Shown: positions 32,861-55,663 of the stretch, piece by piece
Position numbering within the stretch: position 1 is the stretch's first letter
Layout of the letters: each line of letters opens with the position of its first letter
Origin: Roseicyclus persicicus
GTDB lineage: Bacteria; Pseudomonadota; Alphaproteobacteria; Rhodobacterales; Rhodobacteraceae
Assembly: GCF_012395815.1 (NCBI RefSeq)
Contig: NZ_JAAZQQ010000002.1
Span: 620,001 to 684,000 of the forward strand
Length of the DNA stretch: 64,000 nucleotides
Direction of reading: 5' to 3'
Notes under the pieces: generated by a model
What the model saw: the letters and a program-made list of their open reading frames with translations, nothing else
Told to the model about the DNA's origin: nothing
The model's database searches: none
Position numbers and translations under genes: made by a program

Positions 32861-32918
32861 CGGGGTAGGTCCTGATCTTGAGGGTGGCCCGCGCGGTGGG
32901 TCCCGCGCGGGCGTCGCA

Positions 32919-37043: not shown

Positions 37044-37060
37044 GCGCCGCCGCCCCGGCG

Positions 37061-37525: not shown

Positions 37526-37545
37526 GGTGGCAGCACCCACTATAT

Positions 37546-37560
37546 GACAACTCAGTTGTC
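37546..37560. promoter_or_regulatory. MarR operator, autoregulatory site
   Basis: GACAACTCAGTTGTC is a perfect 7-1-7 palindrome 20 bp before the marR-like start. It shares the core CAACTNAGTTG with the site at 40026-40042. It lies between marR (minus) and the DUF1992 gene (plus), so it may control both directions. Confidence 0.75.
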
Positions 37561-37621
37561 AATATGTCCCTTCGTGGCGTCCCGCTTCCGGATCGCCCTT
37601 GACCCCTGATAGAGGACCACC

Positions 37622-37936: not shown

Positions 37937-38013
37937 GCCACCACCCATCCCTGACCAACTGACCCGGTCGCGTTGCGCGCGGGCCGTCTCCCCATGTCAA
38001 AGCGAGGATCCTC

Positions 38014-38358: not shown

Positions 38359-38381
38359 TGTCTGGGAGGGAAGAGCCAGCG

Positions 38382-38699
38382 ATGATCACTTGTGTCCTGC
38401 GCTATGAGGTCGATGCCGACAAGCTTGAGGACTTCGAAGCCTATGCGCGCAGGTGGATCGACCTCCTGCCTCGCTTTGGAGGCGTGCACCATGGCTATTT
38501 CCTGCCGCATGAGGGTGCCAACGACATCGCGCTCGCCTTGTTCTCCTTCCCTTCGCTCGCTGCCTACGAGCGGTACCGCGCCGTGAGTGCAGATGACCCC
38601 GACTGTCGCGCGGCGTACCGCTTCGCCCGCGAGACTCGGTGCATCCGCCGCTACGACCGGCAGTTTCTCCGGCCCTTGCTTGCGGCAGCCGGAGACTGA
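38382..38699 (+). CDS. NIPSNAP-family protein
   Basis: A 105-residue dimeric alpha+beta barrel protein. MITCVLRYEVDADKLEDFEAYARRW and LPRFGGVHHGYFLP are typical of NIPSNAP domain proteins, and FSFPSLAAYERYR matches the second half. ATG 38382 follows GGGAGGGAAGAG at a long but acceptable distance. The function is unknown. The gene ends 19 bp before the convergent MFS pump stop. Confidence 0.83.
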   Translation: MITCVLRYEVDADKLEDFEAYARRWIDLLPRFGGVHHGYFLPHEGANDIALALFSFPSLAAYERYRAVSADDPDCRAAYRFARETRCIRRYDRQFLRPLLAAAGD

Positions 38700-38718
38700 G
38701 GGCGGCACACCGACGCAA

Positions 38719-39954: not shown

Positions 39955-40002
39955 CGCGGGGACTCCTTCGGCAAGGGGGCGGGATGCCGCCTTGGCCGGC
40001 GC

Positions 40003-40042
40003 GCGATACAAGGGTGAGTGAAAAATGTCAACTTAGTTGACA
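40003..40042 (-). promoter_or_regulatory. Sigma-70-type promoter of the MFS gene overlapped by MarR operator
   Basis: On the minus strand -35 TTGACA (40031-40026), 17-bp spacer, -10 TATCGC (40008-40003). The -35 is one arm of the perfect palindrome TGTCAACTTAGTTGACA (40026-40042), which shares CAACTNAGTTG with the site before the marR-like gene. Occupancy would block RNA polymerase. Confidence 0.78.
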
Positions 40043-40068
40043 AAATATCGGCCCCGCCCGTGTTGGTG

Positions 40069-41901: not shown

Positions 41902-41974
41902 GGGATGTATCCTTTCGGCCGGTGCCGTGGCACCGGGGTTGTGTGATCGTTAGGGAGGAAAGACCGGCCCGCCG

Positions 41975-42670
41975 TCAGAGGGCGACGAGCGCGAAGCCGA
42001 GATGGGTGCCGATGTGGGCGAGGATGGCCGCCTCGAGCCCGCCCCGCAGAAGGGCGGCACCGTAGGCGAGGCCGAGAAGCGCGTTCCAGATCAGGGTCCG
42101 GGCGGTCAGCAGGGGTGTCATGGCGCCGGCCTCCAGCTGCACGGCGGGCAGATGCGCCGCCGCGAAGGCCAGCGCGGCGAGGCCCGCGGCCAGCCAGAGC
42201 GCGGCCCGGTGCGGCAGGAAACGGGACAGGCCGAGCGCAAGCGCGGTGAGGAGGCCCCAGCGCATCAGCACCTCCTCGGTCAGGCCGCCGTAGAGGAGGC
42301 CGAGGGCCAAGGTGCCGACCCCGCGCTCCTCCCGCAGCGTCGGCAGTCCCGGCACCTGCCAGAGCGGCGCCGTGGCGTGGTCGGCTAGCGCGACGGCAAG
42401 GCCGAGGGCGAGGCCTGCAACCGTGGCGGCTACGAGGCTCCGTCCCGGCAGCGTCGACCCGAGGACCAGCCGCGACCGAAGGCCCATCTTGGGCGCGGCC
42501 CAGCCCCCTGACAGCGCCGCAAGGCCGAGCAGGAGGAGTGGCGAGAGGGCGATTGCGAGCGGCGGAACGCCCGCCGGCACGGGGACGAGGAGTGGCAGGG
42601 CAGCCACGCCGGGCAGGCCGAGCAAGAGCGCCCGGCCGGCTCGGGCGGAATAGCGGGGGAGATCGGACAT
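41975..42670 (-). CDS. CPBP-family intramembrane glutamic endopeptidase
   Basis: A 231-residue membrane protein of the CAAX/Rce1-like (CPBP, ABI) family. The catalytic motif is EEVLMRWG (EExxxR type) near 140, and the conserved His residues lie in LAFAAAHLPA and AHIGTHLG. ATG 42670 is used; an upstream ATG at 42703 would lie inside the promoter of the divergent operon. The substrate is unknown; bacterial members sometimes process bacteriocins or signalling peptides. Confidence 0.83.
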   Translation of the reverse strand: MSDLPRYSARAGRALLLGLPGVAALPLLVPVPAGVPPLAIALSPLLLLGLAALSGGWAAPKMGLRSRLVLGSTLPGRSLVAATVAGLALGLAVALADHATAPLWQVPGLPTLREERGVGTLALGLLYGGLTEEVLMRWGLLTALALGLSRFLPHRAALWLAAGLAALAFAAAHLPAVQLEAGAMTPLLTARTLIWNALLGLAYGAALLRGGLEAAILAHIGTHLGFALVAL

Positions 42671-42703
42671 GGGAGAAAACGCCTCGGCAAAACTGATTCG
42701 CAT

Positions 42704-42732
42704 TTGACGGCCATCAATTGCTGTTTTACAAT
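42704..42732 (+). promoter_or_regulatory. Near-consensus sigma-70 promoter for the DUF2975 operon
   Basis: TTGACG (42704-42709), 17-bp spacer, TACAAT (42727-42732), in a locally AT-rich stretch 35 bp before the DUF2975 start. It is one of the best-matching housekeeping promoters in the window. Confidence 0.75.
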
Positions 42733-42766
42733 AATTTAGTCAACCAAGAGATTAAGAAGTTCCGTC

Positions 42767-43309
42767 ATGCCAGATCCGACACCCCTGGCGCGCGTGCAGC
42801 GCCTGTCCCGCTTCTTCTCGCGCCTTGCCCTCGGGCTGGGGGCGCTCCTCGTGTTGCTCGACGTGCTGGTCTGGCTCGACCGCGACGCGCTGGAACGGGG
42901 CGCGGCCCTGCTCCTGCCAGAGGGCACGGCCTACGCGCTGACGCCCGTGGCGCTCGCGGGGGGCTTCGTGATGGGGCATCTCGTCCTCGGCCTCCTGCTT
43001 GTCGCGCTGTGGCAGGCGCATCGCCTGTTCGCGGCCTTCGCGCGTGGCGAGATCCTCGTGCCCGAAAGCGGCGCGCGGCTGTTCCGCATCGGCCTGGCCT
43101 TCGCGCTGGTGCTGCCGGCGCAGATGCTGGGGTCCGCCGTCGCCTCGGTCCTCCTCACGCTCGGCAACCCGCCGGGCGAGCGGGTCCTGTCGATCTCGGT
43201 CGACCCCGCCCATGCGATGCTGGCCGCGGCCGGTCTCCTGATCCTGACGGTCGGCTGGGTCATGGCCGAGGCCGCGCGGATCGCCGACGACAACGCCCAG
43301 ATCGTCTGA
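42767..43309 (+). CDS. DUF2975 membrane protein
   Basis: A 180-residue protein with four hydrophobic segments (about 20-40, 60-82, 100-125, 143-165). DUF2975 proteins are membrane partners of a small YozG-like Cro/CI regulator, and that gene follows by 10 bp. Together they act as a membrane/regulator switch of unknown signal. The spacing and order here match that pairing. Confidence 0.78.
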   Translation: MPDPTPLARVQRLSRFFSRLALGLGALLVLLDVLVWLDRDALERGAALLLPEGTAYALTPVALAGGFVMGHLVLGLLLVALWQAHRLFAAFARGEILVPESGARLFRIGLAFALVLPAQMLGSAVASVLLTLGNPPGERVLSISVDPAHAMLAAAGLLILTVGWVMAEAARIADDNAQIV

Positions 43310-43319
43310 GGAGCGCCCG

Positions 43320-43535
43320 ATGCCGATCAACGTGACGCTCGACGTGATGCTCGCTCGCCGCAAGATGAAGTCCAAGGACCTCGCCGAGCGCATCGGGATC
43401 ACCGAGCAGAACCTGTCGCTCCTGAAGTCCGGCAAGGTGAAGGGGGTGCGCTTCGAGACCCTCGCGGCCATCTGCCGGGAGCTCGACTGTCAGCCGGGCG
43501 ACCTGCTCGAATACCTCGGGGAGGGCGAGGGATGA
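43320..43535 (+). CDS. YozG-like Cro/CI-type DNA-binding protein
   Basis: A 71-residue helix-turn-helix protein: DVMLARRKMKSKDLAERIGITEQNLSLLKSGKV (split across 9-41) is the HTH, and FETLAAICRELDCQPGDLLEY is the conserved C-terminus. It usually pairs with DUF2975. The stop overlaps the Nudix-GNAT gene by 4 bp (ATGA), so the three genes form one operon. Confidence 0.85.
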   Translation: MPINVTLDVMLARRKMKSKDLAERIGITEQNLSLLKSGKVKGVRFETLAAICRELDCQPGDLLEYLGEGEG

Positions 43536-44437
43536 CGCCGCGTCCCGCCGCCCGTCTGCTGGTCGTCGACCCCGAGGGCCGCGTCCTGCTCCTGCGCTTC
43601 AACCACCGGACGGGCCCCTTGGCCGGGCAGGTCTACTGGGCCACGCCCGGCGGCGCGCTCGAGCCCGGCGAAAGCTGGGAGGCCGCGGCGCTCCGGGAAC
43701 TCTTCGAGGAAACCGGGATCGTGGCGACGGACCCCGGTCCGCCGGTTCATGCGCGCGACTTTCCCCTGCAGATGCCGGACGGCAGCTGGGTCGAGGCGCA
43801 GGAACGCTTCTACCTGGTCCGCAGGGCGGGCGGCGACCTTGCCCCTGCAGGACGCACGGCGCACGAGGCCGAGGTGCTGGACCGGCACAGATGGTGGTCG
43901 CTCGACGCGCTGGAGCAGACCTCCGACATCGTGCATCCGGGCGACCTCGCCACGATCCTGCGCCCGCATCTGGGTGGGGTCGCGGCCGTCACGCTCCGGC
44001 CCTACGACGCCACGCGCGACCTCGACCGCTGCCTCGCCCTCTGGCGCGCGGCCTCCGAGGTCGGGCACCCCTTCCTCGACGCCGCCACGCTCGACGCGGA
44101 TGCCGAGGTGATCCGCGACATCTACATGCCCGCCGCCGAGGTCACCGTGGCCGAGCGCGGCGGTCGGGTGATCGGCTTCGTCGCCCTGCTGGGGGACCTG
44201 GTGGGCGGGCTCTTCGTCAACCCGGCGGCGCATCGCACCGGTGCGGGCCGGGCGCTGATCGCCGCGGCGCTGCAGGGCAAGGGGCGGCTCGAGGTGGAGG
44301 TCTACGAGGCCAACCGCGAGGCGCGCGCCTTCTACGCCGCCTGCGGGTTCGTCCCGGCGGGCCGGCGCGAGCGGGACGATCACGGGCGGGCCCTGCCGCT
44401 CATCCGCATGACCCTGGACGGGGGGCGCAGCACATGA
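43532..44437 (+). CDS. Nudix hydrolase fused to a GNAT acetyltransferase
   Basis: A 301-residue two-domain protein. Residues 1-150 are a Nudix domain with the full Nudix box GALEPGESWEAAALRELFEETGI (about 46-68, G-x5-E-x7-REUxEExGU). Residues 150-300 are a GNAT domain (LRPYDATRDLDRC start, FVNPAAHRTGAGRALIAAAL motif A, EVYEANREARAFYAACGFV motif B). Both parts look intact. The fusion suggests a nucleoside-diphosphate-linked or aminosugar substrate processed by both activities, which is inference. It is coupled to neighbours on both sides by ATGA overlaps. Confidence 0.8.
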   Translation: MTPRPAARLLVVDPEGRVLLLRFNHRTGPLAGQVYWATPGGALEPGESWEAAALRELFEETGIVATDPGPPVHARDFPLQMPDGSWVEAQERFYLVRRAGGDLAPAGRTAHEAEVLDRHRWWSLDALEQTSDIVHPGDLATILRPHLGGVAAVTLRPYDATRDLDRCLALWRAASEVGHPFLDAATLDADAEVIRDIYMPAAEVTVAERGGRVIGFVALLGDLVGGLFVNPAAHRTGAGRALIAAALQGKGRLEVEVYEANREARAFYAACGFVPAGRRERDDHGRALPLIRMTLDGGRST

Positions 44438-45036
44438 CGATGCTTGCCGCGCTCGAGTCCGCGACCTGGCTCAACCCGCCGCCAGCCTGGTCCCTGACCG
44501 CCGCGGCGCTGACGGTCGAGACCGGGGACCGCACGGATTTCTGGCGCGACACGCTCTACGGGTTCCGGCGCGACAGCGGCCATGCCCTCCTCCTGCCGGT
44601 GGAGGGGGATTTCACGGCGCATCTCAGGTTCGACGGCGATTACGCAGCACTCTACGACCAGGCCGGGCTGATGCTGCGCCGGGATGGCGCGCACTGGATC
44701 AAGGCTGGGATCGAGCAGTCGGACGGGGTCGCCAACCTGTCGGTCGTGGTGACGCGGGAGGCGTCGGACTGGTCGACGCTCGCGCTCGGGCCTTCGCCGG
44801 GCCCGCAGCGGCTGCGGCTGACCCGGCTCGGCGGCGCCGTGGTCATCCAGGCGCGGAACGCCGCCAACCGCTGGCAGCTCCTGCGCGTGGCGCCCTTCCC
44901 CGAGGGGCCGGCGCAGGTCGGGCCCATGGCCTGCTCGCCCGAGCGCGGCGGGTTCCGCGCGCGGTTCACGGAGTTCACGCTAGGGCCCGCGGTCTCTCAG
45001 GCCCTCCACGACGAAAGCCCGGCCTCGCCATCTTGA
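44434..45036 (+). CDS. DUF1349 (concanavalin-like fold) protein
   Basis: A 200-residue protein. WLNPPPAWSLTAAALTVETGDRTDFWRDT near the start and the AGLMLRRDGAHWIKAGIEQSDG block are typical of DUF1349, a jelly-roll domain related to YeaC/regulation-of-enolase proteins. It probably binds a carbohydrate or sugar-like ligand. It overlaps the Nudix-GNAT gene and ends the DUF2975 operon, convergent with the acyltransferase. Confidence 0.75.
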   Translation: MTMLAALESATWLNPPPAWSLTAAALTVETGDRTDFWRDTLYGFRRDSGHALLLPVEGDFTAHLRFDGDYAALYDQAGLMLRRDGAHWIKAGIEQSDGVANLSVVVTREASDWSTLALGPSPGPQRLRLTRLGGAVVIQARNAANRWQLLRVAPFPEGPAQVGPMACSPERGGFRARFTEFTLGPAVSQALHDESPASPS

Positions 45037-45059
45037 TGCACCAGCTGCCGTGGAGCGGC

Positions 45060-46184
45060 TCAGATCACCTGCCGCACCAGTGCCGACCGGCGCAGCACGG
45101 CGGTGAGGCCGAAGGCGGCGAGGGTCGTCGCCACGATCGACAGGGGCAGAGCCGCCCCGTGCGACGTGCCGACCGCGTCGAGCGAGCGGCAGACCGCCAC
45201 GAGGATCGGGGCATGCAGGACGAAGGCGCCGTAGCTGTTGGCGGCGGCCCAGCCCCAGACCCGGGCCGCCCTGCCGCCGCGCGCCTGGCTCCAGAGGAGG
45301 AGCCCCGCGATGGCGCCAAGGGCGATCAAGGGCTCCCACAGAGCATAGGCTACGGCGGCGGCGGAGAGGCCGGTTTCGAACCGGGGCGCCTCGGACGCGA
45401 GGAGCACGGCGGGCAGGAGCGGAAGGGCCACGAGGCCCGCCGCGACCGCGCCGACAAGGCCCCCGCGCGGGAGGCGGTCGAGCCACCCCTGCCGCGCGGC
45501 CCGGATTCCGAGGGCGAAAAGGACGACGTAGGAGGCGAAGTAGCCCAGCTGGAACCCCGCCACCGTCGCGCCGACGGGGACGACCTGCCGGATCGCCAAG
45601 GCCGCCAGACCCGTCGCCAACGCAAGGGCGATCCAGTGCTTGAAGGGTGGCACTTGGAGACGGGAGACGACGGGGCGGGGCAGCGCCGCGAAGACCGTCG
45701 AGAAGACCAGCAGCGCGGCGGGGAACCACAGCGGCCCGAGGACGAAGCGACCCTCCAGGATGCGGGCCTGCGCGTCCGCGAGGATGTCTTCCATCGGAGC
45801 CGTGGCCAGGGAGACGGTCAGCGGGCCGAGGAGGAAACCGAACAGCAGCGCCGGCAGGCCGAGCCGCAGGGCGCGGTCGGCGAAGAAGGTGGCCGGCCCC
45901 TTGCGATCGAGCGACGGCACCGCCAGCGCGCCGGAAAGCAAGAAGAACAAGCCCATGAAGAAGGCCTGGTTCACGGCGGCGAGAAAGGTGAGCCCGATAT
46001 TGGTCTCGTCTGTCGCCTTGAAGAACCAGCTGCCGCTCGCACCGTAGGTGATCGCGGCGTGGTGGACGATCACGAGACCCGTCAGGCAGGCCCGCAGCCG
46101 GTCGATCCACACGGCGCGCGCGGGAGGGGACAGGGCGGCCGGGCGGCCCGGTGCCGCGTGGAAGGGGACAGTTGCGGTGGTCAT
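45060..46184 (-). CDS. Acyltransferase family 3 membrane protein
   Basis: A 374-residue integral membrane protein of the acyltransferase 3/OafA group. The N-terminal AVWIDRLRACLTGLVIVHHAA (about 24-44) carries the conserved R and HH, and the rest has about ten hydrophobic segments. Such enzymes transfer acetyl or other acyl groups to surface sugars or small molecules. ATG 46184 is used; a long upstream reading lacks family similarity. The gene stands alone between the DUF1349 and MocR genes. Confidence 0.8.
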   Translation of the reverse strand: MTTATVPFHAAPGRPAALSPPARAVWIDRLRACLTGLVIVHHAAITYGASGSWFFKATDETNIGLTFLAAVNQAFFMGLFFLLSGALAVPSLDRKGPATFFADRALRLGLPALLFGFLLGPLTVSLATAPMEDILADAQARILEGRFVLGPLWFPAALLVFSTVFAALPRPVVSRLQVPPFKHWIALALATGLAALAIRQVVPVGATVAGFQLGYFASYVVLFALGIRAARQGWLDRLPRGGLVGAVAAGLVALPLLPAVLLASEAPRFETGLSAAAVAYALWEPLIALGAIAGLLLWSQARGGRAARVWGWAAANSYGAFVLHAPILVAVCRSLDAVGTSHGAALPLSIVATTLAAFGLTAVLRRSALVRQVI

Positions 46185-46286
46185 CGGCCTCGCGCCTCGG
46201 CTTGTCTGAACTGGCGCTGCATGTGCCGCGAAACAGGCTGATCCAACAGGTCCAGTTGGCCGCAATTGGAGGGGGCCAGTCTGCGC

Positions 46287-47750
46287 TCAGGCCACCTCGA
46301 CCGGTCCGAGATGGCGATCCAGCGCCTCGGCGAAGCGGCGGGCCTCCCGCTCGGTCGCGGTGCCGAAGCCGACCACCAGACCCGTCAGGGGGGCGTCTAG
46401 GCAGTAATCCGAGAGAGCGCCCACTGCGAAGCCCTCGGCGTTCAGCCGGGATCTCAGGGTCTGGTCCTCCGCCAGCTCCGGCAGGTCGATGGCAATCTGC
46501 AGGCCGCCGGCGGGCGCGGACAGGCGGGCGCGCGCGCCCAGCCGGTCGGACAGGGCGCCGGTGACGAGGGCGAGGCGGTCGCGGTAGGCGGCCGAGATCG
46601 CCGCGAGATGCGCCCGGTAGCCCCCCGAGGCCATGAACTCGGCCAGCGCGGCCTGTGCATGGACATTCGCCGCAAGCCCGAGCCGGGCCTGGATCGCGCG
46701 GAGTGCCGGGGCGCTGCCGGGGGGCGCCACCAGCCAGCCCAGCCGCAGCCCCGGCAGGAGGCTCTTCGCGGCGCTGCCGAGGTAGACGACATGGCCCGCG
46801 CCGGGCAGGGCCGCCAGCGCCGCGATTCCGCGGCCTTCCCAGAGGAACTCGGCGTCGTAGTCGTCCTCCACGATCACCGCACCTGCGGCCTGCGCGGCCG
46901 ACAGGAGCCCGAGGCGCCGCTGCATCGGCAGGCGCACGCCGGTCGGATACTGCGTGGTGGGGGTGACGTAGATCAGCCGGGCGTCCGAGAGGTCCGCGCG
47001 GTCGGGGTCCGCGCCGGTCCCGTCGACCGGCAGGGCGCGGCAGGTCAGCCCGGCGGCCTCGAAGGCGGCCCGCGCGCCGATGTAGCCGGGGCTCTCGACC
47101 AGCGCGACCTCGCCCGGATCGGCGAAGGCGGCGGCGGCCAGCACGAGGCTCGCCTGCGTGCCGGGGGTGACGATGATGTCCTCCGGGGCGCAGACGAGGC
47201 CGCGGTGGCGGTGCAGCTGGTCGGCCAACACCTGTCGGAGCTCGGGCAGCCCCTCGAAATGGGCATAGCCCTCGGCGCCGTCCTGCCGGTGGCGCGCGGC
47301 GCGGCGGAGCACGCGGCCCCAGGCATCCGCGGGAAACAGCCGGGGATCGGGGGAGCCGGGGGCCAGCGGCCCCTCGGCAAGGCCGCGCCGCAGGACGACA
47401 GCCGCCTTTGCCGCCCGCTGCGACAGGCGTGGCGGACCGTTGTCCGCCGGGGCGGCGGGCCGCGTCATCGCCGCCACGCGGGGCCGCGCGCCAGGGCGCA
47501 CTTCGATGACGCCCTCGGCTAGCAGGAGGTCGTAGGCCGCGTTCACCGTGTTCCGGCCGACCCCCAGCAGCCCCGCCGCGGCGCGGGAGGACGGCAGCGC
47601 CTCGCCGGCCGCGAGGCGCCCGTCAAGCACCGCCTGCCGGATGCCGCGGTAAAGCTGCGCCACCAGCGTATCGGGGCCGGCGGGGTCGAGCGCCACGAGG
47701 CTGGCGAAGACATCTGGTTCCACGAAATCCCTTCGGACTGGCTCCTCCAT
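46287..47750 (-). CDS. MocR/PdxR-type GntR regulator with aminotransferase domain
   Basis: A 487-residue regulator. Residues 1-85 form a GntR winged helix (LYRGIRQAVLDGRLAAGEALPSSRAAAGLLGVGRNTV split across 32-68). From about 110 on is a fold-type I aminotransferase domain binding PLP, with YLGSAAKSLLPGLRLGW containing the Schiff-base Lys. PdxR-type members activate vitamin B6 genes. The divergent neighbour is a PPOX-like protein, so it probably regulates that gene and senses PLP. Confidence 0.85.
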   Translation of the reverse strand: MEEPVRRDFVEPDVFASLVALDPAGPDTLVAQLYRGIRQAVLDGRLAAGEALPSSRAAAGLLGVGRNTVNAAYDLLLAEGVIEVRPGARPRVAAMTRPAAPADNGPPRLSQRAAKAAVVLRRGLAEGPLAPGSPDPRLFPADAWGRVLRRAARHRQDGAEGYAHFEGLPELRQVLADQLHRHRGLVCAPEDIIVTPGTQASLVLAAAAFADPGEVALVESPGYIGARAAFEAAGLTCRALPVDGTGADPDRADLSDARLIYVTPTTQYPTGVRLPMQRRLGLLSAAQAAGAVIVEDDYDAEFLWEGRGIAALAALPGAGHVVYLGSAAKSLLPGLRLGWLVAPPGSAPALRAIQARLGLAANVHAQAALAEFMASGGYRAHLAAISAAYRDRLALVTGALSDRLGARARLSAPAGGLQIAIDLPELAEDQTLRSRLNAEGFAVGALSDYCLDAPLTGLVVGFGTATEREARRFAEALDRHLGPVEVA

Positions 47751-47754
47751 GGAA

Positions 47755-47776
47755 CCGCATCATGGAGCAGATGCGG
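47755..47776. promoter_or_regulatory. Inverted repeat between the MocR gene and its divergent PPOX gene
   Basis: CCGCATC (47755-47761), 8-bp spacer, GATGCGG (47770-47776), only 4 bp from the MocR start. A direct CATGGA repeat lies across it. This is the expected place for a MocR operator that controls both genes. Confidence 0.55.
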
Positions 47777-47801
47777 GCCATCCGATAGAGGAGATCGCCC
47801 C

Positions 47802-48452
47802 ATGACCGACCAGCCGCGATTCAACCGCGCCCGCAATCCGAAGCACGCCACGCAGGACGCCGCCGCCATCGACGCGATCCTCGACGCCGGCCTCGTCGGC
47901 CATGTCGGTTTCGTCGCCGAGGGGCGGCCGATGGTGATGCCGATGGCCTATGCCCGCGGCCCGGGCTGCATATGGCTGCACGGAGCCTCCAAGGCGCGGA
48001 TCGTGAAGCTCGCCGATGGCGCGGCCCTATCCATGACGGTGACGCTGCTCGACGGGATCGTCGCCGCGCGGTCGGGGTTCCACCACTCGGTCAACTATCG
48101 GTCCGCCGTCGTCCATGGCACCGGGCGGCTGGTGACGGACGCCGCGGAGCATGACGCGGCGTTGCAGGCGATCACCGAGCACCTGCTGCCCGGGCGCCAC
48201 GCCGAGATCCGCGCCATGACCGCGCAGGAGCGCAAGGCGACCGGCGTGATCGCCCTGACCGTCGAGGCGGCCAGCGCCAAGATGCGCTCCGGCCCGCCGG
48301 TGGACGACCCGGCCGATCACGGCCTCGGTTTATGGGCCGGTGTCGTGCCGGTCGTCACCGCCCTCGGCCGTGCGATCCCGGATTCTCACACCCCCGCGGG
48401 CCTCGCCGAGCCCCCCTCCATCGCCCGCGCACGCGCGCGGTTCGCCCGTTGA
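47802..48452 (+). CDS. Pyridoxamine 5'-phosphate oxidase family protein
   Basis: A 216-residue FMN-binding split-barrel protein: LVGHVGFVAEGRPMVMPMAYARG near 27-50, WLHGASKARIVKLADGAALSMTVTLLDGIV in the middle, and VNYRSAVVHGTGRLV. It belongs to the uncharacterised PPOX group next to MocR regulators, not to the biosynthetic PdxH. It is divergent from a MocR gene and followed by a DUF1127 gene after 26 bp. A role in B6 vitamer or redox metabolism is likely but unproven. Confidence 0.83.
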   Translation: MTDQPRFNRARNPKHATQDAAAIDAILDAGLVGHVGFVAEGRPMVMPMAYARGPGCIWLHGASKARIVKLADGAALSMTVTLLDGIVAARSGFHHSVNYRSAVVHGTGRLVTDAAEHDAALQAITEHLLPGRHAEIRAMTAQERKATGVIALTVEAASAKMRSGPPVDDPADHGLGLWAGVVPVVTALGRAIPDSHTPAGLAEPPSIARARARFAR

Positions 48453-48478
48453 GCCACCCGTTCAAGAGGATCCTGTCC

Positions 48479-48691
48479 GTGACCTTTATCGCTCCCCTGT
48501 TCCCGATTGTCCGTTGGCCGACTGCCCTGTCTGATGCCACGTCCACCTGCATGCGCAGCCGCGAGATCGCCGAGGCGGTGGCGCATCTCGACAACCGCTT
48601 GCGCGCCGACATCGGCCTGCCGCCGCTGATCGATCTCGCGGAGCAGCCCCACGAGGCGGCCGCGCGCATTGCCATGCTGGCGTGGCGCTGA
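48479..48691 (+). CDS. DUF1127 small protein
   Basis: A 70-residue protein with CMRSREIAEAVAHLDNRLRADIGLPP, the DUF1127 core. GTG 48479 is chosen because AAGAGGA lies 8 nt before it, and no nearer ATG gives the full domain. It is the third DUF1127 gene of the window, 26 bp after the PPOX gene and probably co-transcribed with it. Confidence 0.78.
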   Translation: MTFIAPLFPIVRWPTALSDATSTCMRSREIAEAVAHLDNRLRADIGLPPLIDLAEQPHEAAARIAMLAWR

Positions 48692-48721
48692 TCCCCGGCT
48701 GACGAGAGGAGACCCTGTGCC

Positions 48722-50659
48722 ATGACCCACGCCCGCCTCATCCCGACCCTTGCCGGCGCTGCCCTGATCGGACAGGCCACTTTCCTATCCGCCGATGACG
48801 GCACCCAGTCCGGATGGATCGAGCCGGAGGGCCGCATCGCCCTCGTCCTGCCCGAGGGCTGGCAGCAGATCGCCGCGGGGCCGCTCGTGTCCCTGACAAG
48901 CCCCGACGGCGATATCACCCTGTGGTTCGGGCTAAGCGACGCAGCAGACCCGGCCGCCGTGGTCGCCGACGCCTGGTCGATCGTGGGCGAGCCCGGGATC
49001 CAGCCCGAGGCCGCCGTTCCCGCGCCGCCACGGGATGGCGTCGAGACCGCGACGGCGTTCGTTTACGCGCCGGAGGGCGAGGTGATCCGGCAGGCCATCG
49101 CGGAAGCACGCGACGGGGATCTGCATGTCACCCTGATCCGTGGCACCCGCGCCGCCCTCGACCGACGCGGCGCGCAAGTGAACATCGCGGTGACCGGCTT
49201 TCTGCCGGCAGGCGCGGGCGGCCCGGACCTTGCCGGGGTCGCGCCTGCCCGCCTCGACGCCGCGGACCTTGCCGCGCTCGACGCCTATGTGACGGAGGCG
49301 ATGCCGCTCTTCGACGTGCCGGGGGCCGTGGTGGCCGTGGTGCAGGACGGCGAGCTGCGGCTCCTGCAAGGCTACGGCGTGCGGGCCCAAGGCTCCGCGG
49401 GCCCGATGACACCTGACACCCGCCTCATGGTCGGCTCGGTCGGCAAGACCATGACGACGCTCCTGATGGCGCGGCTGGTGGAGGACGGGCGCTTGGCGTG
49501 GGACCAGCCTGTCCGCGATCTCCTTCCGGGATTCGCCGTGGCAGACCCGGCCTTGTCCGGGACGATCACGGTGCAGAACCTCGTCTGTGCCTGCTCAGGC
49601 GTTCCCCGGCGCGACATGGAGTTCCTGTTCAACGCCGACGAGCTGGACGCGGAGGCGGTGATCGGCTCGCTTGCCGGTTTCGCCTTCTTCACCGGTTTCG
49701 GCGAGGCGTTCCAGTATTCCAACCAGCTGGTCGCGACCGGCGGGTGGGTCGCGGCAGCCGCGACCGGCGCGCGCTGGGGCGACCTTGATGCGGGCTACGC
49801 CGCGGCGCTGCAGGACCGGGTGTTCGCGCCCCTCGGCATGACACGCTCGACGCTCGACTTCGCCGAGGTTCTGGCCGATGCCGACGTGGCGCAGCCGCAT
49901 GCCCCGCATGGCACGGGCACCCGTCTGCCGCTCCCCTTGCAGACAGAGGCCGCGCTGCTGCCGGTCGCCCCGGCGGGGGCCCACTGGTCTTCCGGCGCGG
50001 ACATGGCGCGCTACCTTCAGGCATTGATCGACCTGCAGGACGGCACCGGCCTCCTGTCGTCCGAGGGCTTCGCACATCTCACGACCCCGCAGGTGCCGGT
50101 CAGCGCCACCATGTCCTACGGGCTCGGCTGGTTCGTGGAGGACTGGCGCGGCCAGCGCCTTGTCCATCACGGCGGCAATACTTTCGGCTTCACCAGCGAA
50201 CTGGCCTTCCTGCCGGAGGCGGGGGCCGGGATCGTGATCCTCACCAATGCCGGGCGCGCCAACGACTTCGTGCAGGCCGTCCGCGCGAGGTTCCTCGAAC
50301 TCCTGTTCGACCTGCCGCCCGTGCATCACGCCGGGGCCCTGATCGCCCGCGCCGAGGCCGCGCGCCGGGCGGCGGACTGGGCCGGCGCGGTGCCTGTCGA
50401 TCCCGTCGCGGCGGAGCGGGCCGTGGGCCGCTACCGATCCGATGTGCTGGGCGAGATCACCCTGCGCCGCGACGGCGCGCGGCTGATCTTCGACATCGGC
50501 GAGATGGCCGGCGAGGTTCGCGTCGATCCCCGGCAGCCCGACCGCTGGATCCTGTGGGAGGGGCCCTTGTTCCCCATGCCGCTTGCGCAGGATCCGGCAA
50601 CCGGGGCGCTGATCTTTGGTGAGGGCGCCACGCACTACGTGTTCGAGGCCGAGCGATGA
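48722..50659 (+). CDS. Exported serine hydrolase of the class C beta-lactamase fold
   Basis: A 645-residue protein. It has a signal peptide (to about 24), an N-terminal domain of about 150 residues without clear family, then a beta-lactamase/D-aminopeptidase-like domain. SxxK is SVGK in MVGSVGKTMTTLLMARL, YxN is YSN in FQYSNQLVATGGW, and HxG is HHGG in RLVHHGGNTFGFTS. A small C-terminal domain follows. Activity may be esterase or peptidase rather than antibiotic hydrolysis. It is coupled to the next gene by ATGA. Confidence 0.82.
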   Translation: MTHARLIPTLAGAALIGQATFLSADDGTQSGWIEPEGRIALVLPEGWQQIAAGPLVSLTSPDGDITLWFGLSDAADPAAVVADAWSIVGEPGIQPEAAVPAPPRDGVETATAFVYAPEGEVIRQAIAEARDGDLHVTLIRGTRAALDRRGAQVNIAVTGFLPAGAGGPDLAGVAPARLDAADLAALDAYVTEAMPLFDVPGAVVAVVQDGELRLLQGYGVRAQGSAGPMTPDTRLMVGSVGKTMTTLLMARLVEDGRLAWDQPVRDLLPGFAVADPALSGTITVQNLVCACSGVPRRDMEFLFNADELDAEAVIGSLAGFAFFTGFGEAFQYSNQLVATGGWVAAAATGARWGDLDAGYAAALQDRVFAPLGMTRSTLDFAEVLADADVAQPHAPHGTGTRLPLPLQTEAALLPVAPAGAHWSSGADMARYLQALIDLQDGTGLLSSEGFAHLTTPQVPVSATMSYGLGWFVEDWRGQRLVHHGGNTFGFTSELAFLPEAGAGIVILTNAGRANDFVQAVRARFLELLFDLPPVHHAGALIARAEAARRAADWAGAVPVDPVAAERAVGRYRSDVLGEITLRRDGARLIFDIGEMAGEVRVDPRQPDRWILWEGPLFPMPLAQDPATGALIFGEGATHYVFEAER

Positions 50660-51164
50660 GACATGCCCGTCGGCTTTCCCTTCGGCTCGCCGGCCTCGCC
50701 GTCGTCGGCCTGCAGGGCGAAGCCGCCGCCGACCCTGTCCGCCCCGGGGCCAAGCATTGCGTCGTGCGCGTCGCGCCCGACGATCAATTCAACCGCCGGG
50801 CCGGTCCCGGCCCGGGGCACCCGGTGCTGGCCCGGCTGCCCACCGCGCGGTGCGGCCTGGTCGTCTCGTCACCCTGCCGGGGCAGCTGGTGCCCGGTCGA
50901 GGACGGACACCAGCCGGTTGGGTCCACCGCCGCCACATCGCCGCCGTCTCCCGCCCGACGCACTGCCTCAGCCCGCTCACCCGGCCGCAGGCAGCCGCGC
51001 TCCGGGCCTGGCCCTCGGATCGCTCGCGCGTGCTGACCCGGCTCGCCCCCCGAAGCTGCGGCATCGCCCTCCTGTCCTACCGGGTGGAGGGCTGGCAGAG
51101 GATCCGGCAGGGCGGCTGGGAAGGCTGGGTGCGCCTGTCAGACCTGGTGGTCATCGACGGGTAA
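50656..51164 (+). pseudogene. SH3-domain-like periplasmic protein, frameshifted
   Basis: The ATG overlaps the hydrolase stop. The first frame gives a signal-like start (RLSLRLAGLAVVGLQGEAAA) and an SH3-like segment (HCVVRVAPDDQFNRRAGPGPG, ARCGLVVSSPCRGSWCPVEDG). After about 50925 the expected continuation AGWVHRRHIAAVSRP is in the -1 frame, which then runs to YRVEGWQRIRQGGWEGWVRLSDL and the stop at 51164. A single-base deletion (or an undercalled base) near 50915-50930 explains this. Read straight, the first frame ends at 51036 in low-complexity sequence. Confidence 0.65.
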
Positions 51165-51175
51165 CGCCGTCCCGC

Positions 51176-51733
51176 TCAGCCGGCGATGAGGTCTGCCGTC
51201 CGTCGCGCCTGCGCGAATTCGCCGTGCAGATGGTAGACAGCGGCGCGGTGGATCTCCTCGGCCGACGGGGCCGGGCCGCCGTCGAAGCCGACATCGGCGT
51301 TGCGGGTGAAGGCGGCGCAGGCGTCATGGGCGAGCTCCACCGGGAAGCCGAGGTTCGCCGCCATCCGTGTGGTGGTGGACACGCAATGGGGCGTGGTCAG
51401 CCCGCAGATGATCAGCGCCTCGGCGCCGGCCGCCCGCAGGTCGGCCTCGAGCGTCGTGCCGATGAAGGCCGAGTTCACCGATTTCTCGTAGACTGCCTCG
51501 CCAGGATCGGGCTCGAAGCCCGGCTTGAACGCCGCGCCGGGGCCCGCCAGCGGCGAGCCGGCCTCCCGGCTCAGGTGGCGGACATGGAGGACGCGCCCGC
51601 CCGCCGCCCGCACCGCGGCGAGGAGCCCCAGCGCGTTGGCCTCGGCGTCGGGGTTGTTGCGCTGGCCCCAGACCGGGTCGTCGAACCCGCGCTGGATGTC
51701 GATCAGGATCAGGGTCTTGTCAGACAGGGGCAT
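51176..51733 (-). CDS. Isochorismatase-family cysteine hydrolase
   Basis: A 185-residue alpha/beta hydrolase. Asp is in LILIDIQRGF (8-17), Cys in CGLTTPHCVSTTTRMA (near 115-130), and HVRHLSREAG lies between. This group includes nicotinamidases and uncharacterised amidases; the PHCVSTT segment fits the YcaC/cysteine hydrolase type. ATG 51733 has a GGAGG-like sequence at 51744-51750. It precedes the truncated DUF4260/LysR junction and is convergent with the SH3-like gene. Confidence 0.83.
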   Translation of the reverse strand: MPLSDKTLILIDIQRGFDDPVWGQRNNPDAEANALGLLAAVRAAGGRVLHVRHLSREAGSPLAGPGAAFKPGFEPDPGEAVYEKSVNSAFIGTTLEADLRAAGAEALIICGLTTPHCVSTTTRMAANLGFPVELAHDACAAFTRNADVGFDGGPAPSAEEIHRAAVYHLHGEFAQARRTADLIAG

Positions 51734-51750
51734 GGCGGTCTCCTCGGAGG

Positions 51751-51960
51751 TCAGGCGGCGCGGCCGATCCGGCCCAGATGGGTCAGACCGAAGGATGTTT
51801 CGGACTTGAGCCCGTAGCCGAGCGCGCGGTCGACTCCAATATGGGCGAACCAGACGCAGGCGACCGGAAGGAGGGGCGGAACCAGAGCAACCCCGAGCGC
51901 CCCAAGGAGCGCGGGTGCGAGGTAGGTGTGGGCAAGGTTGTAGAGCCGCGCGCCGCTCCT
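51751..51960 (-). pseudogene. DUF4260 protein, C-terminal remnant
   Basis: Reading the minus strand, 69 codons (RSGARLYNLAHTYLAPALLG at the 5' end, later WFAHIGVDRALGYG and FGLTHLGRIGR) match the C-terminal half of DUF4260 membrane proteins. No start codon or N-terminal helices exist; the similarity ends abruptly at 51960 where a LysR remnant in the other direction begins. This is best explained by a deletion. Confidence 0.65.
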
Positions 51961-51961
51961 G

Positions 51962-52540
51962 GCCGAGCATCCATGTCTCGCGGTGGAGCTGTCGTTGTCG
52001 AACGACAGCGCCGATCTTGTCCGGAGGGAGGCGGATTTCGCGGTCCGGATGTTGCGGCCGACGCAGGCGCGTCTCGTCGCGCAGCGCCTGGGGCCAGTGC
52101 CGCTGGGGCTGTTCGCGCAGCGCGCCTACCTCGACCGGGCCGGACGGCCGAACCGGCCCGAGGACCTCGTGGAGCATGTCCTGATCGGACCCGATGCCGA
52201 TCCCACGGCACTGGCCGGGCTCGCAGCCTTCGGCGGCCTCCAGGACCGGGCGGCCCTGCGCCTGCGCAGCGACAGCGAGGCGGCCCAGATCGCGAGCGTC
52301 CGGGCGGGTCTCGGGATCGGGGTGATTCAGGCGGGTATCGCCGCGCGGGAGCAGGGCCTCGAGCCCGTGCTGCCGGGCATCATCGGCTGGAGCCTCGAGG
52401 CCTGGCTGGTCCTGCACGACGACCTGCGCCGGCTGCCGATGGTCCGCCGCGTGGCGGACCACCTGTCGGTCGTGCTCCCTGCGCTGCTGGCCGAAGGGCG
52501 GCTTTCGCCTCAGCCCTCGGTAACCCGACGCGCGACGTAG
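51962..52540 (+). pseudogene. LysR-type regulator, C-terminal effector-domain remnant
   Basis: The frame from 51962 reads AEHPCLAVELSLSNDSADLV, then READFAVRMLRP and RAGLGIGVIQAGIAAREQGL, the middle and end of a LysR substrate-binding domain. The N-terminal helix-turn-helix and about 100 residues are missing. The most upstream usable start (GTG 51983) lies within the domain, so no functional regulator can be made. It overlaps the 3' end of the next convergent hydrolase by 31 bp. Confidence 0.7.
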
Positions 52541-53520
52541 CCCGAGATCAGCGCGGCGAGGGTGCGCGCCTGCACCGGGTCCATGAGGATCGAGAAGTGG
52601 TCGGCGTCGGGCATCGTCACCTGTTCCCCGGTTGTGAAGCGGCCCGCGATCTCGCGGTGCAGCGGCTCCACGAGGTGCGAGAAATCGGCGGATCCCGGCA
52701 CCGGGCTCCCGGCGGTGACCGCGAGGACGGGCAGGTCGGTCGGAAGCACCTGCGCCGCGGCGCGGGCGGTGATCGCGTCCCAGTGGCGGAGTTCCTCAGC
52801 CGAGGTGGAGAGATGGACACGGTCGCCGGCGAACGCGCGGGCCGCGGCCATCGCCTCGCCCTCTAGGCCCGTGGCCCCGGCGGCGAGCGGGTTCCACAGG
52901 TGCAATAGACCGGTCATCGAGACGCCGGACAGGGCCGAGAGCAGGCCGGGAAAGGCGCGGAACTCTGCCACCATGTCGGGGCTGAAGGCCTCGAGCTGGT
53001 CCTCGTGCGAGCTGTCCACCAGCACGACGGCGGCGGTGTCGGCGGGGAACTGCGCCGCGAAATCCCGCACGAAGAAGCCGCCAAGCGAATGGCCGACGAG
53101 GACGAAGGGCCCGGCCTCGCCCGCAGCGGCCAGTGCCGTCCGCAGGTCGCGGGCGGTCTGGCCGGGTGCGAAGCCGTCTGGCGCGGGGTCGCTCAGGCCC
53201 ATCCCGGCGCGGTCGTAGGAACAGACGCGGGCGTCGTCATCGAGCGCCGCCTGCACCCAAGTCCAGGTCTCGGCAAAGCCGGTGGCGCCGGCCTCGAGCA
53301 CGTAAGTCGTGTCGCCTGCGCCGGTGCAGTGCAGACGCAGGTCATGGGTGCCCGCGCTGGCGAGGACGGCATCGCCGGCCAGCGCCTGGTGCGCCCAATG
53401 ACGGGCAGTTTCCTGCGCCCCGGCAACGAGCGCGATGCCCGCCAAGGCAAGGCCCGCGAGGCGCGCGGCGCGGCGCAGGGCGGGTCTGGCGGTGGTGGGA
53501 GAGGGGAGGGTCATTGTCAT
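52510..53520 (-). CDS. Alpha/beta hydrolase with N-terminal membrane anchor or signal
   Basis: A 336-residue hydrolase. A hydrophobic segment at about 18-38 (RRAARLAGLALAGIALVAGA) is a signal or anchor. The nucleophile elbow is VLVGHSLGGFFVRDFA, the acid probably in LPVLAVTAGSPVPGSAD, and the His in MPDADHFSILMDP. ATG 53520 or 53514 could start it. Its promoter region carries a copy of the motif seen before the TetR gene, so it is probably the target of that repressor. The substrate is unknown. Confidence 0.8.
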   Translation of the reverse strand: MTMTLPSPTTARPALRRAARLAGLALAGIALVAGAQETARHWAHQALAGDAVLASAGTHDLRLHCTGAGDTTYVLEAGATGFAETWTWVQAALDDDARVCSYDRAGMGLSDPAPDGFAPGQTARDLRTALAAAGEAGPFVLVGHSLGGFFVRDFAAQFPADTAAVVLVDSSHEDQLEAFSPDMVAEFRAFPGLLSALSGVSMTGLLHLWNPLAAGATGLEGEAMAAARAFAGDRVHLSTSAEELRHWDAITARAAAQVLPTDLPVLAVTAGSPVPGSADFSHLVEPLHREIAGRFTTGEQVTMPDADHFSILMDPVQARTLAALISGYVARRVTEG

Positions 53521-53539
53521 GGTTCAGTCCTTTGTAGAT

Positions 53540-53550
53540 CGGATGTCCGT
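53540..53550. promoter_or_regulatory. Putative TetR operator before the alpha/beta hydrolase gene
   Basis: CGGATGTCCGT at 53540-53550, 20 bp upstream of the hydrolase start, shares CGGRTGTCCGT with a site before the TetR gene and is likewise followed by TTTTTA-like AT-rich sequence. Confidence 0.5.
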
Positions 53551-53580
53551 CCGGTTTTTAGGATAAGAAAATGAGGAGGG

Positions 53581-54159
53581 TCAGTCGAAGCGCATCGAAA
53601 TCAGCGCCGTGCGGACCCCGGCGATGTCGGGCCGTTCGCCCAGCGCGACCGACAGGATTAGGCCCTGGTAAGTCGCGTAGAGCAGGTCGGCTAGGGCATG
53701 GGCCGGCAGCCCCGTCCACCGACCGCCGGCCTGCCGGCGTTCGACCAGGGCGACGAGGGCGGCCCGGACGGCGGCCCGGTTGCCGGTCACGGCCCGGTGC
53801 ACGTCTGGGTTGGCCAGTGCCTCGGCGGCGATCATCAGGTCGACGCGGGGCGCCTCGGCCGGGTCCATCCTGGCGAGGCCATCGAGGAAGGTTTCGATGA
53901 TCGCGTCAAGGTCGGCGGCAGGGCCCGCACCCCCGCCGAAGGCTGATAAGGCCTCGGCCATGCCCGCCTCGGTCACGGCAAGGATCAGATCGTCCTTCGA
54001 CTGGAAGTAGTTGTAGACCGCACCGGCGCTCAGGCCCGCTTCGCGGAAGACGTCGCGGAGGGTGACCTTGGACAGGCCCTTCGCGGCGAACACGCGCCGG
54101 GCCGCAGCGATGATCTTGGCGCGGCGTTCTTCCATGGCTTCCGGGGTGATCCTCGGCAT
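53581..54159 (-). CDS. TetR-family transcriptional repressor
   Basis: A 192-residue repressor. The N-terminal helix-turn-helix is AAKGLSKVTLRDVFREAGLSAGAVYNYFQSKDDLI (split across 24-58). The helical C-terminal ligand domain is typical of length. The start at ATG 54159 lies 15 bp from a palindromic motif that is repeated before the adjacent hydrolase gene, pointing to auto- and hydrolase repression. Confidence 0.85.
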   Translation of the reverse strand: MPRITPEAMEERRAKIIAAARRVFAAKGLSKVTLRDVFREAGLSAGAVYNYFQSKDDLILAVTEAGMAEALSAFGGGAGPAADLDAIIETFLDGLARMDPAEAPRVDLMIAAEALANPDVHRAVTGNRAAVRAALVALVERRQAGGRWTGLPAHALADLLYATYQGLILSVALGERPDIAGVRTALISMRFD

Positions 54160-54174
54160 CGACTCACCTATAAA

Positions 54175-54186
54175 ACGGACACCCGT
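54175..54186. promoter_or_regulatory. Putative TetR autoregulatory operator
   Basis: ACGGACACCCGT (ACGG-ACAC-CCGT inverted repeat), inside a wider CTATAA...TATAAC arrangement, 16 bp from the TetR start. Its complement contains CGGGTGTCCGT, matching the hydrolase site at 53540 in 10 of 11 positions. Confidence 0.55.
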
Positions 54187-54287
54187 CCTATAACATTCTG
54201 CTACATTGCGAGCAACACATTTCTGCGGAATGCGCGGATGATCTCATCGAGCCAGTCGACCGATCGACAGGGATTGCCCTGACCCAC

Positions 54288-55379
54288 CTATTCAATCGCG
54301 TCTTTTCGACCAAGCCGTATGCGCAGTTCATCGCAGGTCATCTCCATGCTCGGGACCAGCGCAGCGAGGGATGGGCGAACATATCGTTGGCCTGTGATGG
54401 ACAGGGGTGTGTGGTTGAGCAGGCGGCCAACGATCTCTTCGAGGACGCCGGCCTCCATGGCGACCGTCGCGAAGGTGCGCCGGTGGGCGTGCGGGCTCCA
54501 AGGTATGCTCTGTGGTGACGTGAGCCTTCCTTCCGGGCCCTTGGGGGAGGGGAAGACCCACCGACGGTGCAGACCGCGGAGCGGCGCCAGGATTTCGTGG
54601 TGAACCTGCAGGATCGGCAGGTCGAAGCTCCGGCCATTCTTCGTCATGGGCAGGTGAATGCGGTCCTCGTGGACATTCTTCCACTCCAGCGTCAGCGCCT
54701 CGGTCTTGCGCAACCCCGTGAACAGGAGGAGTTCGTAGAAGACCGCATGGATCGGGTTTGGCAGCGCGTCCACGGCCCGCCGCCATTGAGGCAGGTCCTC
54801 GATGATCGATCCATTCGGTCGCTCCTCATACCACTCGATCGCCATCGTCGGGCATTCGGGCAGATCCGAGGTGCGGCGCGCATGGTTCCAGACGGTGCGG
54901 AAGTACTTGAACGTGTGGTTGGCTGCGGAAGGCCGATCCGCCATGGACCTGTGCTTGGCGACGACCATCGTCTTGCTGATCTCGTCGAGCGGCAGGTTTA
55001 GCCAATCCCTGAGATGAAGCTCGAACTGCTGTCGCAATCCTGAGCGATGCGCGTCGGATCGGAGCTTTGGCCGCGCGAGGTAGGCCTCCATCGCCTTCTG
55101 AAGTGTGGGCGCGCCGAGCTGGATCGCTTTCCCGGCGCCGCGTCCCCATTCCAGCGCAAAGCCAAGCGCCGTCTGCCGGGCGGCCGCCGCTGAGATCACC
55201 GGGAACCTGCCGATCAGCGCGCGCTGCGTGCGACCGCCGATGTCTCGCTGGTAGTACCAGGTCTTCGACCGCTTGCCGACGTAGAGCACGAAGCCCTTGA
55301 TCTCGGTGTCCCAGTACTTCTCTGTGCCCTGTTTGGAGAAGGGCAGCTTGCTTGCGAAGGTCTCAGTCAGCTTTGGCAT
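54288..55379 (-). CDS. Tyrosine-type site-specific integrase
   Basis: A 363-residue phage-type integrase. The N-terminal arm-binding DUF4102-like part (KLTETFASKLPFSKQGTEKYWDTEIKGF split across 3-30) and SAM-like core-binding domain precede the catalytic domain. Catalytic residues visible: R224 (TGLRKTEAL), H297 and R300 (HAHRRTFAT), H323 (LLNHTP), and nucleophile Y333 (GQRYVRPS). It lies 124 bp from a tRNA-Gly 5' half, the usual arrangement for an island integrated into a tRNA gene. ATG 55379 is used; upstream codons are in AT-rich non-coding DNA. Confidence 0.92.
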   Translation of the reverse strand: MPKLTETFASKLPFSKQGTEKYWDTEIKGFVLYVGKRSKTWYYQRDIGGRTQRALIGRFPVISAAAARQTALGFALEWGRGAGKAIQLGAPTLQKAMEAYLARPKLRSDAHRSGLRQQFELHLRDWLNLPLDEISKTMVVAKHRSMADRPSAANHTFKYFRTVWNHARRTSDLPECPTMAIEWYEERPNGSIIEDLPQWRRAVDALPNPIHAVFYELLLFTGLRKTEALTLEWKNVHEDRIHLPMTKNGRSFDLPILQVHHEILAPLRGLHRRWVFPSPKGPEGRLTSPQSIPWSPHAHRRTFATVAMEAGVLEEIVGRLLNHTPLSITGQRYVRPSLAALVPSMEMTCDELRIRLGRKDAIE

Positions 55380-55502
55380 GTTGTCGGATTTTTGTCGGTT
55401 TTGGCGGGAAATCACATGCACCGACAGGACACGAAGAGAACACAAGATGTCAATAAAAAGAATATATTAGAATGATGAGGAAGCTCCGGGAAAACAAGCA
55501 AA

Positions 55503-55544
55503 TCAGCTTGGAAGGCTGACAGGCTACCATTACATCACACCCGC
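55503..55544 (-). tRNA. tRNA-Gly(TCC), 5' half only; probable integration site
   Basis: On the minus strand the sequence starts GCGGGTGTGATGTAATGG and goes through the D-arm to the anticodon stem-loop TCAGC-CTTCCAA-GCTGA, a good match to alphaproteobacterial tRNA-Gly with anticodon TCC. Immediately after GCTGA the sequence turns AT-rich and no T-arm or matching CACCCGC acceptor follows. The gene is therefore cut at the anticodon stem, a frequent crossover point of tyrosine integrases. I find no 3' half elsewhere in the window. Confidence 0.7.
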
Positions 55545-55663
55545 CGCGCCCCGAGCCGGTACTGGATGCGGCAGGGCCAGTCAAGGTTTCCGACCCGATC
55601 GCGGACCCATGCGCCGCGCGCCCGCCCCGGCCGGTGCGGGGGCGCGGCCGGGACGGCGCGGGA

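Follow-up and report, generated by a model that had tools for sequence, protein, structure and literature searches.

The window, the whole stretch of 64,000 nucleotides analysed here, corresponds to C3:620001-684000 in the 3.71-Mb, 10-contig genome of Roseicyclus persicicus (G000). Near its right end lies a gene encoding a tyrosine integrase of 363 residues counted from the ATG (54288..55379, minus strand), which has an arm-binding domain (PF13356) and a catalytic domain (PF00589). Upstream of it, the minus-strand sequence from 55544 to 55503 matches positions 1-42 of an intact genomic tRNA-Gly(TCC) at 100%, and then switches to AT-rich DNA followed by the integrase. The preliminary description, whose interval 54288-55544 covers the integrase and this 5' half, correctly recognized the broken tRNA, but placed the break in the anticodon stem, whereas it lies in the anticodon loop (CTTCCAA). 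Taken to the end of this loop, the displaced 5' half of the host tRNA-Gly(TCC) gene spans 55508..55544 (minus strand), an assignment based on the sequence match and on the same placement at 74 of 80 related loci. A promoter-like sequence of the host tRNA, TTGACT-17 bp-TACCGG (55556..55584, minus strand), identified by its resemblance to the consensus, now points at the split half and the integrase.

The 16-mer CAGCCTTCCAAGCTGA has three exact copies in the 3.71-Mb genome, all on the minus strand of C3, which are located at window position 55503, inside an intact tRNA-Gly(TCC) (C3:614,775-614,848) and in a second 3' half (C3:614,636-614,684), respectively; the reversed pattern, used as a control, gave no match in the whole 3.71-Mb genome. 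This repeat search, proposed earlier, marks both ends of an island as well as the tRNA that it carries. At the far (left) end, the 3' half of the host gene spans C3:614636-614679 on the minus strand. The host tRNA-Gly(TCC) is severed in its seven-nucleotide anticodon loop, with the 5' half beside the integrase and the 3' half at the far end. The putative 7-bp crossover core CTTCCAA (55508..55514, minus strand), which is common to both junctions in the compared relatives, has its partner at C3:614673-614679 (minus strand), 5.3 kb left of the window, and the exact cut would fall within these seven bases. Compared to the 7-bp core in relatives, the two junctions of G000 are identical over 17 bp; the match continuing through GCTGA is an incidental similarity of the G000 copy.

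Read towards the host, the far end consists of an intact tRNA-Gly(TCC) (C3:614775-614848, minus strand; 95 bp inside the island end), a 95-bp arm, the host 3' half and then host DNA. The carried gene has its own promoter-like sequence upstream. A pattern for the TCC 3' half found one intact tRNA and one half in the G000 genome, which also contains a single full-length match to tRNA-Gly(TCC), and the tRNA loci typed by ARAGORN (30 of 39) include glycine tRNAs with the anticodons TCC, CCC and GCC, one of each. The carried copy is apparently the only intact tRNA-Gly(TCC) in G000. It had been supposed that another copy must exist or that the gene was restored elsewhere; the other copy is borne by the island itself, and it replaces the broken gene rather than restoring it at a junction. 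The canonical model, in which the tRNA is rebuilt at a junction, was rejected, as both halves remain split. ARAGORN detected no tRNA in the window, in line with the earlier statement that no matching half lies within it, and thus no intact tRNA rebuilt within a few kilobases of the integrase. The 3' half does lie to the left, as had been predicted, and the alternative that it had been lost can be dismissed.

Extent, cargo and flanks of the island

The island spans C3:614,680-675,507 (~60.8 kb). It fills window positions 1..55507 and extends to C3:614680, 5,321 bases before window base 1. Since the 3' half was found beyond the left edge, 5.3 kb from the window, the island is longer than 55 kb and includes the benzoate and VapE modules, one of the two options left by the preliminary description, whose observation of an island is confirmed.

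The integrase gene is adjoined by a gene for a TetR-family regulator (53581..54159, minus strand), which belongs to the cargo. On the left, the cargo includes the genes for the large subunit (benA, 1544..2932, plus strand; TIGR03229 above cut-off) and the electron transfer component (benC, 3529..4557, plus strand; NF040810 above cut-off) of benzoate 1,2-dioxygenase. The region 6620..14899 holds a urea/branched-chain-type ABC transporter and a LysR regulator, together with catechol-dioxygenase-like, 3-oxoadipate cleavage and CoA-transferase genes. A TRAP transporter, regulators and various enzymes complete a cargo that is mostly metabolic. In addition, the island encodes a VapE-like helicase-primase (20652..23660, minus strand; PF05272, E = 9e-50; phrog_256, E = 4e-167), which is probably its replication protein, and a small HTH_17 protein (23539..23847, minus strand; PF12728, E = 1.8e-6) that reads as AlpA/excisionase-like.

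The set of VapE-like helicase-primase, HTH_17 regulator and integrase is one that we take to resemble phage satellites, and the island might accordingly be a prophage or phage satellite following strict tRNA-dependent lysogeny. However, no capsid, terminase or tail protein was matched among 51 island proteins (mostly scanned against one library each, and 10 against PHROGs), and the integrase has no relatives in 50,697 phage records (E 1e-20) or in a scan of viral contigs. Moreover, the cargo is mostly metabolic, and the integrase alone, weak matches aside, is common to the G000 island and six other elements. We consider such an origin unlikely; it would concern the route of transfer and is compatible with the replacement of the tRNA gene proposed below. 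Searches for relaxase and type IV secretion proteins gave no match among the same 51 proteins, a set that leaves out seven further called ORFs. The integrase was also without match in plasmids at E 1e-40 and in solved structures. With only the integrase in common with the six other elements, weak matches aside, gene content as a clue to the origin of the island was uninformative.

Past the 3' half, the left flank is host DNA with yedK-like and 5'-nucleotidase-like genes, named by sequence reading. The suggested comparison with relatives lacking the island found an intact tRNA at this site, next to the same yedK-like gene, in the genus. YedK homologues lie beside a tRNA-Gly match in six genus genomes besides G000. 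The tRNA-Gly(TCC) regions obtained from 10 of 12 other genus genomes each have one intact tRNA-Gly(TCC), with a yedK-like gene nearby in eight of the 10 (3-4 kb away in two of the eight). Judged by this synteny, the left flank is the native site.

The right border (window 55545-55664) abuts an SPFH-like gene. Synteny of this flank with the genus was sought and not found, the SPFH-like gene standing elsewhere in relatives. By sequence reading, it is followed by a zinc-ribbon gene in six of nine relatives, and an ABC-F-like gene lies upstream of the tRNA in five of the seven regions compared. In G000, the homologues of the zinc-ribbon and ABC-F-like genes are on contig C1, at C1:992818 and C1:1002751 (within C1:992818-1004550), 9 kb apart, with no recognizable tRNA remnant between them. 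The displacement of the SPFH-like, zinc-ribbon and ABC-F-like neighbours makes a rearrangement likely, and in the simplest reading its break would lie just upstream of the tRNA promoter, so that it need not have touched the island. As the right flank is non-syntenic, the right border rests on the half-tRNA rather than on synteny.

The integrase family and its attachment module

Among 295 genomes of the family, 26, including G000, have an integrase match at E 1e-30 or better, and 14 of the 26 have a close one (at least 68% identity; two partial). Alignment of the G000 integrase with 10 relatives gave identities of 68-80%. The far-end structure, searched as a sequence pattern of an intact tRNA, ~93 bp and a second 3' half, was found in 14 of the 295 genomes, compared to none for a control pattern. 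It is present in 10 of the 14 genomes with a close integrase, versus four of the 281 others, and an eleventh close-integrase genome (G067) has it with a carried tRNA variant that escapes the pattern. Three genomes of the close set (G110, G252 and G196) are without the structure, and the integrases of G110 and G083 have a stop codon inside the match. The integrase of G252 (L116/L259) sits beside a 5' half, and the far end has one intact tRNA with neither arm nor second 3' half, which is perhaps a deletion that locked the island in by recombination between two 3' halves.

A scan of an 84,980-species collection with two peptide patterns yielded 89 integrase relatives, of which 80 were kept. By title, nearly all belong to Rhodobacterales-type genera; the exceptions are a Parvularcula bin (L186), an alphaproteobacterium (L218) and a 34% relative in a Rhizobiales bin (L235). 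At 74 of the 80 loci, a tRNA-Gly 5' half lies 115-136 bp, usually 126 bp, before the integrase start. These halves match at 78% identity or more, compared to a best shuffled score of 57%, and their anticodons are TCC (70), CCC (three) and TTC (one). Outside the 74, L166 has a 5' half of a longer type beyond the consensus set (76%), and L232 has a decayed-looking one (68%). In L218 the start of the integrase is missing, L235 belongs to the distant relative, and no tRNA-Gly 5' half stands beside the integrase in L204 or L210. The integrases of L174, L209 and L227 stand beside the 5' half of a tRNA-Gly(CCC); no CCC 3' part was found at these loci, and the far-end pattern is blind to CCC copies.

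Fifty of the 80 loci were taken on, of which 48 lie in 47 genomes; five loci are common to this set and the 295-genome set. The far-end structure occurs in 33 of the 47 integrase-bearing genomes (reversed control pattern, 0 of 47), and its absence from the other 14 could reflect variant sequences, contig breaks, decay or real absence. A very small element, of ~2 kb, in Limibaculum sediminis (L187, ~280-2330) has a 5' half, integrase, carried tRNA, arm and 3' half, and little else.

The relatives share a recurrent layout of tRNA, ~93-bp arm, 7-bp core, ~126-bp arm and integrase. In the second set, of which 29 of 30 far ends could be parsed, the carried tRNA lies 93 bp from the core in 28 of 29, and in the first set the distance is 92-95 bp. 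A TTGAC box stands 39-43 bp upstream of the carried tRNA in all 14 copies of the first set, G000 included, and in all 29 of the second (38 distinct); several copies have a TTGAC-like sequence closer to the integrase as well. Both arms are enriched in a motif, CC(T/G/A)(G/A)CA, which was defined after inspection of the sequences: 17 left arms contain 33 motifs versus 1.35 expected (at most seven in 500 shuffles), and 15 right arms contain 25 versus 1.7 expected (at most eight in shuffles). A pair of motifs 11 bp apart is found in 14 of the 17 left and 10 of the 15 right arms; in the second set, 25 of 29 left arms have it. Such pairs would suit the arm-binding domain of the integrase, to which they probably bind. 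By eye, the ~126-bp integrase-side arm also has short repeated words (GTTTCAT / TTGCAT or GTTTCC types) with a spacing of ~11 bp, which are possibly further protein sites.

In G000, the right arm keeps its pair, two CCGACA motifs 11 bp apart (55382..55398, minus strand; 19 and 8 bp before the integrase ATG). The sites of the far-side (left) arm are degenerate (CCGATA and TCTGATA), and for this reason the G000 copy may be immobile, no longer able to excise.

Proposed replacement of the host tRNA gene

The carried tRNA and both host halves of G000 are identical in sequence, so that G000 alone cannot show the carried copy to be foreign. It would be compatible with a far-end unit that is the 139-bp scar of another element, and the Islander collection has 159 islands with 5' fragments, compared to 3760 with 3' ones (PMC4383910). 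However, the unit of tRNA, 93 bp and 3' half tracks this integrase family, the motifs in its arm resemble those of the integrase-side arm in type and spacing, and in several genomes the carried tRNA halves match each other, not the host halves. Against this background a scar is very improbable.

Differences between carried and host genes are clearest in the relatives. In G229, 8 + 4 positions (12 in total) distinguish the carried tRNA from the split host gene, whose halves, 62 kb apart, form perfectly paired acceptor and anticodon stems. In G082 the differences amount to 12 + 11, and each of the two stems formed by the host halves contains one lesion. Among 28 genomes of the second set compared on both sides, the host halves are identical to the carried copy in 10 and differ by at least five bases in nine, one of which is G082 again (as G309); in these nine, the host halves pair fully in five and with one or two lesions in four. 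When joined, the host halves of G229 and of G043 score as tRNA-Gly(TCC). The acceptor stem is damaged in five of 29 host pairs versus none of 29 carried tRNAs, and the anticodon stem is one pair short in three of 29 host pairs and one of 29 carried copies. Although many halves are undamaged, this pattern fits a working carried gene and dead halves. Moreover, a Roseibacterium island (L193/G329) carries a tRNA identical to that of G000 between host halves of another type, which speaks for tRNAs that move with the islands.

The host halves might instead be transcribed separately and joined in trans, as are archaeal split tRNAs, for which the complementary stems kept by both halves in G000 would be suitable. 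Yet an intact gene is present in the same genome, and acceptor stems are damaged in the host pairs mentioned above and in none of the carried copies, which leaves joining in trans scarcely credible.

We consider it highly probable that the element is a genomic island whose mode of integration is to replace a tRNA gene. The sequence itself shows the two junctions, an intact carried gene at a conserved position, distant halves that match each other and the stacked units described below. The tyrosine integrase would act on a short core in attP and on the 7 bp of the anticodon loop in the only tRNA-Gly(TCC) gene of the host, which is thereby split into two dead halves. The cell would survive on the complete tRNA-Gly(TCC) that the island supplies; this carried gene has a putative promoter of its own, lies ~95 bp from the core, and is presumably expressed and needed. 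The host gene would be made whole again by precise excision. As long as the island is integrated, the host tRNA promoter and 5' half face into the integrase gene, and our guess from this layout is that transcription from the promoter reaches the integrase; in the circle, the carried tRNA gene would be upstream of the integrase on the same strand.

The closest known systems are those of tRNA-dependent lysogeny, known from mycobacteriophages (Guerrero-Bustamante and Hatfull 2024, PMC10865867), which use a tyrosine integrase with an arm-binding domain and cores of 8-17 bp, as given in Table 2 of that paper. For M. smegmatis, it describes a host with only one copy of the tRNA. A phage from which the tRNA was removed forms lysogens at very low frequency only. 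The island is alike in its tyrosine-family integrase, which by sequence targets a tRNA gene, in the tRNA halves left at its two ends, in the short core, in a complete tRNA of the same isotype and, by sequence, in the lack of any other host copy, with 30 of 39 tRNA loci typed by ARAGORN. It differs in that it is not recognizable as a temperate phage, with no structural phage family in 51 proteins. Because structural phage genes are absent from these, we class the island as working like tRNA-dependent lysogeny, not as lysogeny. The listed systems are temperate phages of Actinobacteria, eight of 11 in tRNA-Lys, compared to islands in tRNA-Gly of Rhodobacterales-type bacteria here, in which no phage genes were recognized; a figure legend on Cluster L places the tRNA genes apart from the integration genes, whereas here the tRNA is fixed ~93 bp from the core. 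The 5' half facing the integrase and the stacked repeats also set islands of the G000 type apart from the phages of that paper.

Prophages of the alphaproteobacterium Sinorhizobium meliloti in tRNA-Leu(UAG), as described in PMC11476347, similarly inactivate the tRNA on integration and bring a replacement; they differ in being classed as intact prophages, found in two strains and in another tRNA. Islands of the Islander type resemble the present one in the tyrosine integrase, the tRNA-gene site, the anticodon loop among the sites used and the tRNA fragment marking an end (PMC4383910). In the Islander scheme, however, the attP fragment restores the gene, whereas here two fragments remain beside a whole extra gene, and no regeneration of the target tRNA by an attP fragment was found in G000 or the compared relatives. 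Elements in reversed orientation and pTN3-like integrases (PMC8371274, PMC6563490) displace the tRNA 5' part, as here. According to the review PMC8371274, an uninterrupted tRNA results from integration by pTN3-like enzymes, as from every integration event, whereas the G000 island leaves the host tRNA interrupted.

Such islands are undescribed in the literature searched, the scope of which excluded most subscription journals. New with respect to that literature are the island setting without phage genes, a tRNA that is a fixed part of the att module, a 5' half displaced so as to face the integrase, and a series of stacked units that would record repeated takeovers. If the replacement model is true, tRNA replacement extends from phages to chromosomal islands with metabolic cargo. 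The tRNA-Gly(TCC) is the tRNA reading GGA; an imprecise loss of the island would deprive the cell of its sole GGA-reading tRNA, which would make the island difficult to lose. The layout would be misread by a search that expects a rebuilt tRNA, and the signature of tRNA, ~93 bp and second 3' half offers a simple way to find more such islands.

Stacked units and possible turnover of the tRNA

The carried tRNA offers a target in its own right. Other islands can thus insert into it, and each later landing would add a unit of ~137 bp on the 3' side. In four of 11 genomes with both ends, the DNA next to a split 5' half is similar to that next to the carried tRNA in the same genome, with identities of 99% over 112 bp (second integrase of G082), 88% over 177 bp (G048), 91% over 53 bp (G279) and 78% over 179 bp (G043). 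Apparently, the integrases concerned were inserted into the tRNA brought by a previous island (nesting). Two units are stacked 137 bp apart in G341 and G345, each with two integrase loci, one of them partial. In G276 (L264; C31, 815-1130), three tandem tRNA-Gly 3' halves are spaced by 138 bp, the third decayed (26/37 match). Other genomes with two integrase loci have one unit only, and the unit count is therefore not strict. The stacked 137-bp repeats suggest that islands have landed in each other's tRNA; we infer both this history and any current mobility.

In G247, the genes flanking the island of G229 (proteins 74% and 72% identical) surround a single tRNA with a 93-bp arm and a 3' half. 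No integrase match was found in the 12 kb around the site or, at E 1e-30, genome-wide. The site of G247 is near-empty and bears a scar, as expected after island loss via recombination between 5' halves.

On a broader reading, which we hold to be somewhat favoured, these elements are a non-viral island lineage that has built an essential tRNA gene into its att module. Each new arrival would inactivate the tRNA-Gly(TCC) gene already present, provide a substitute that in turn serves as a target for later islands, and leave behind a unit of 137 bp. A deletion between repeats would then make the foreign tRNA permanent in the host. In this way an essential tRNA would be renewed through horizontal transfer, and such genes could pass from one genus to another.

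Within the genus, the relatives L127-L136 have several clearly distinct tRNA-Gly(TCC) sequence types, even beside the same yedK-like gene, and the G000 type is close to the tRNA-Gly(CCC) of the genus. Either turnover by islands or conversion between isoacceptors would be consistent with this diversity of types.
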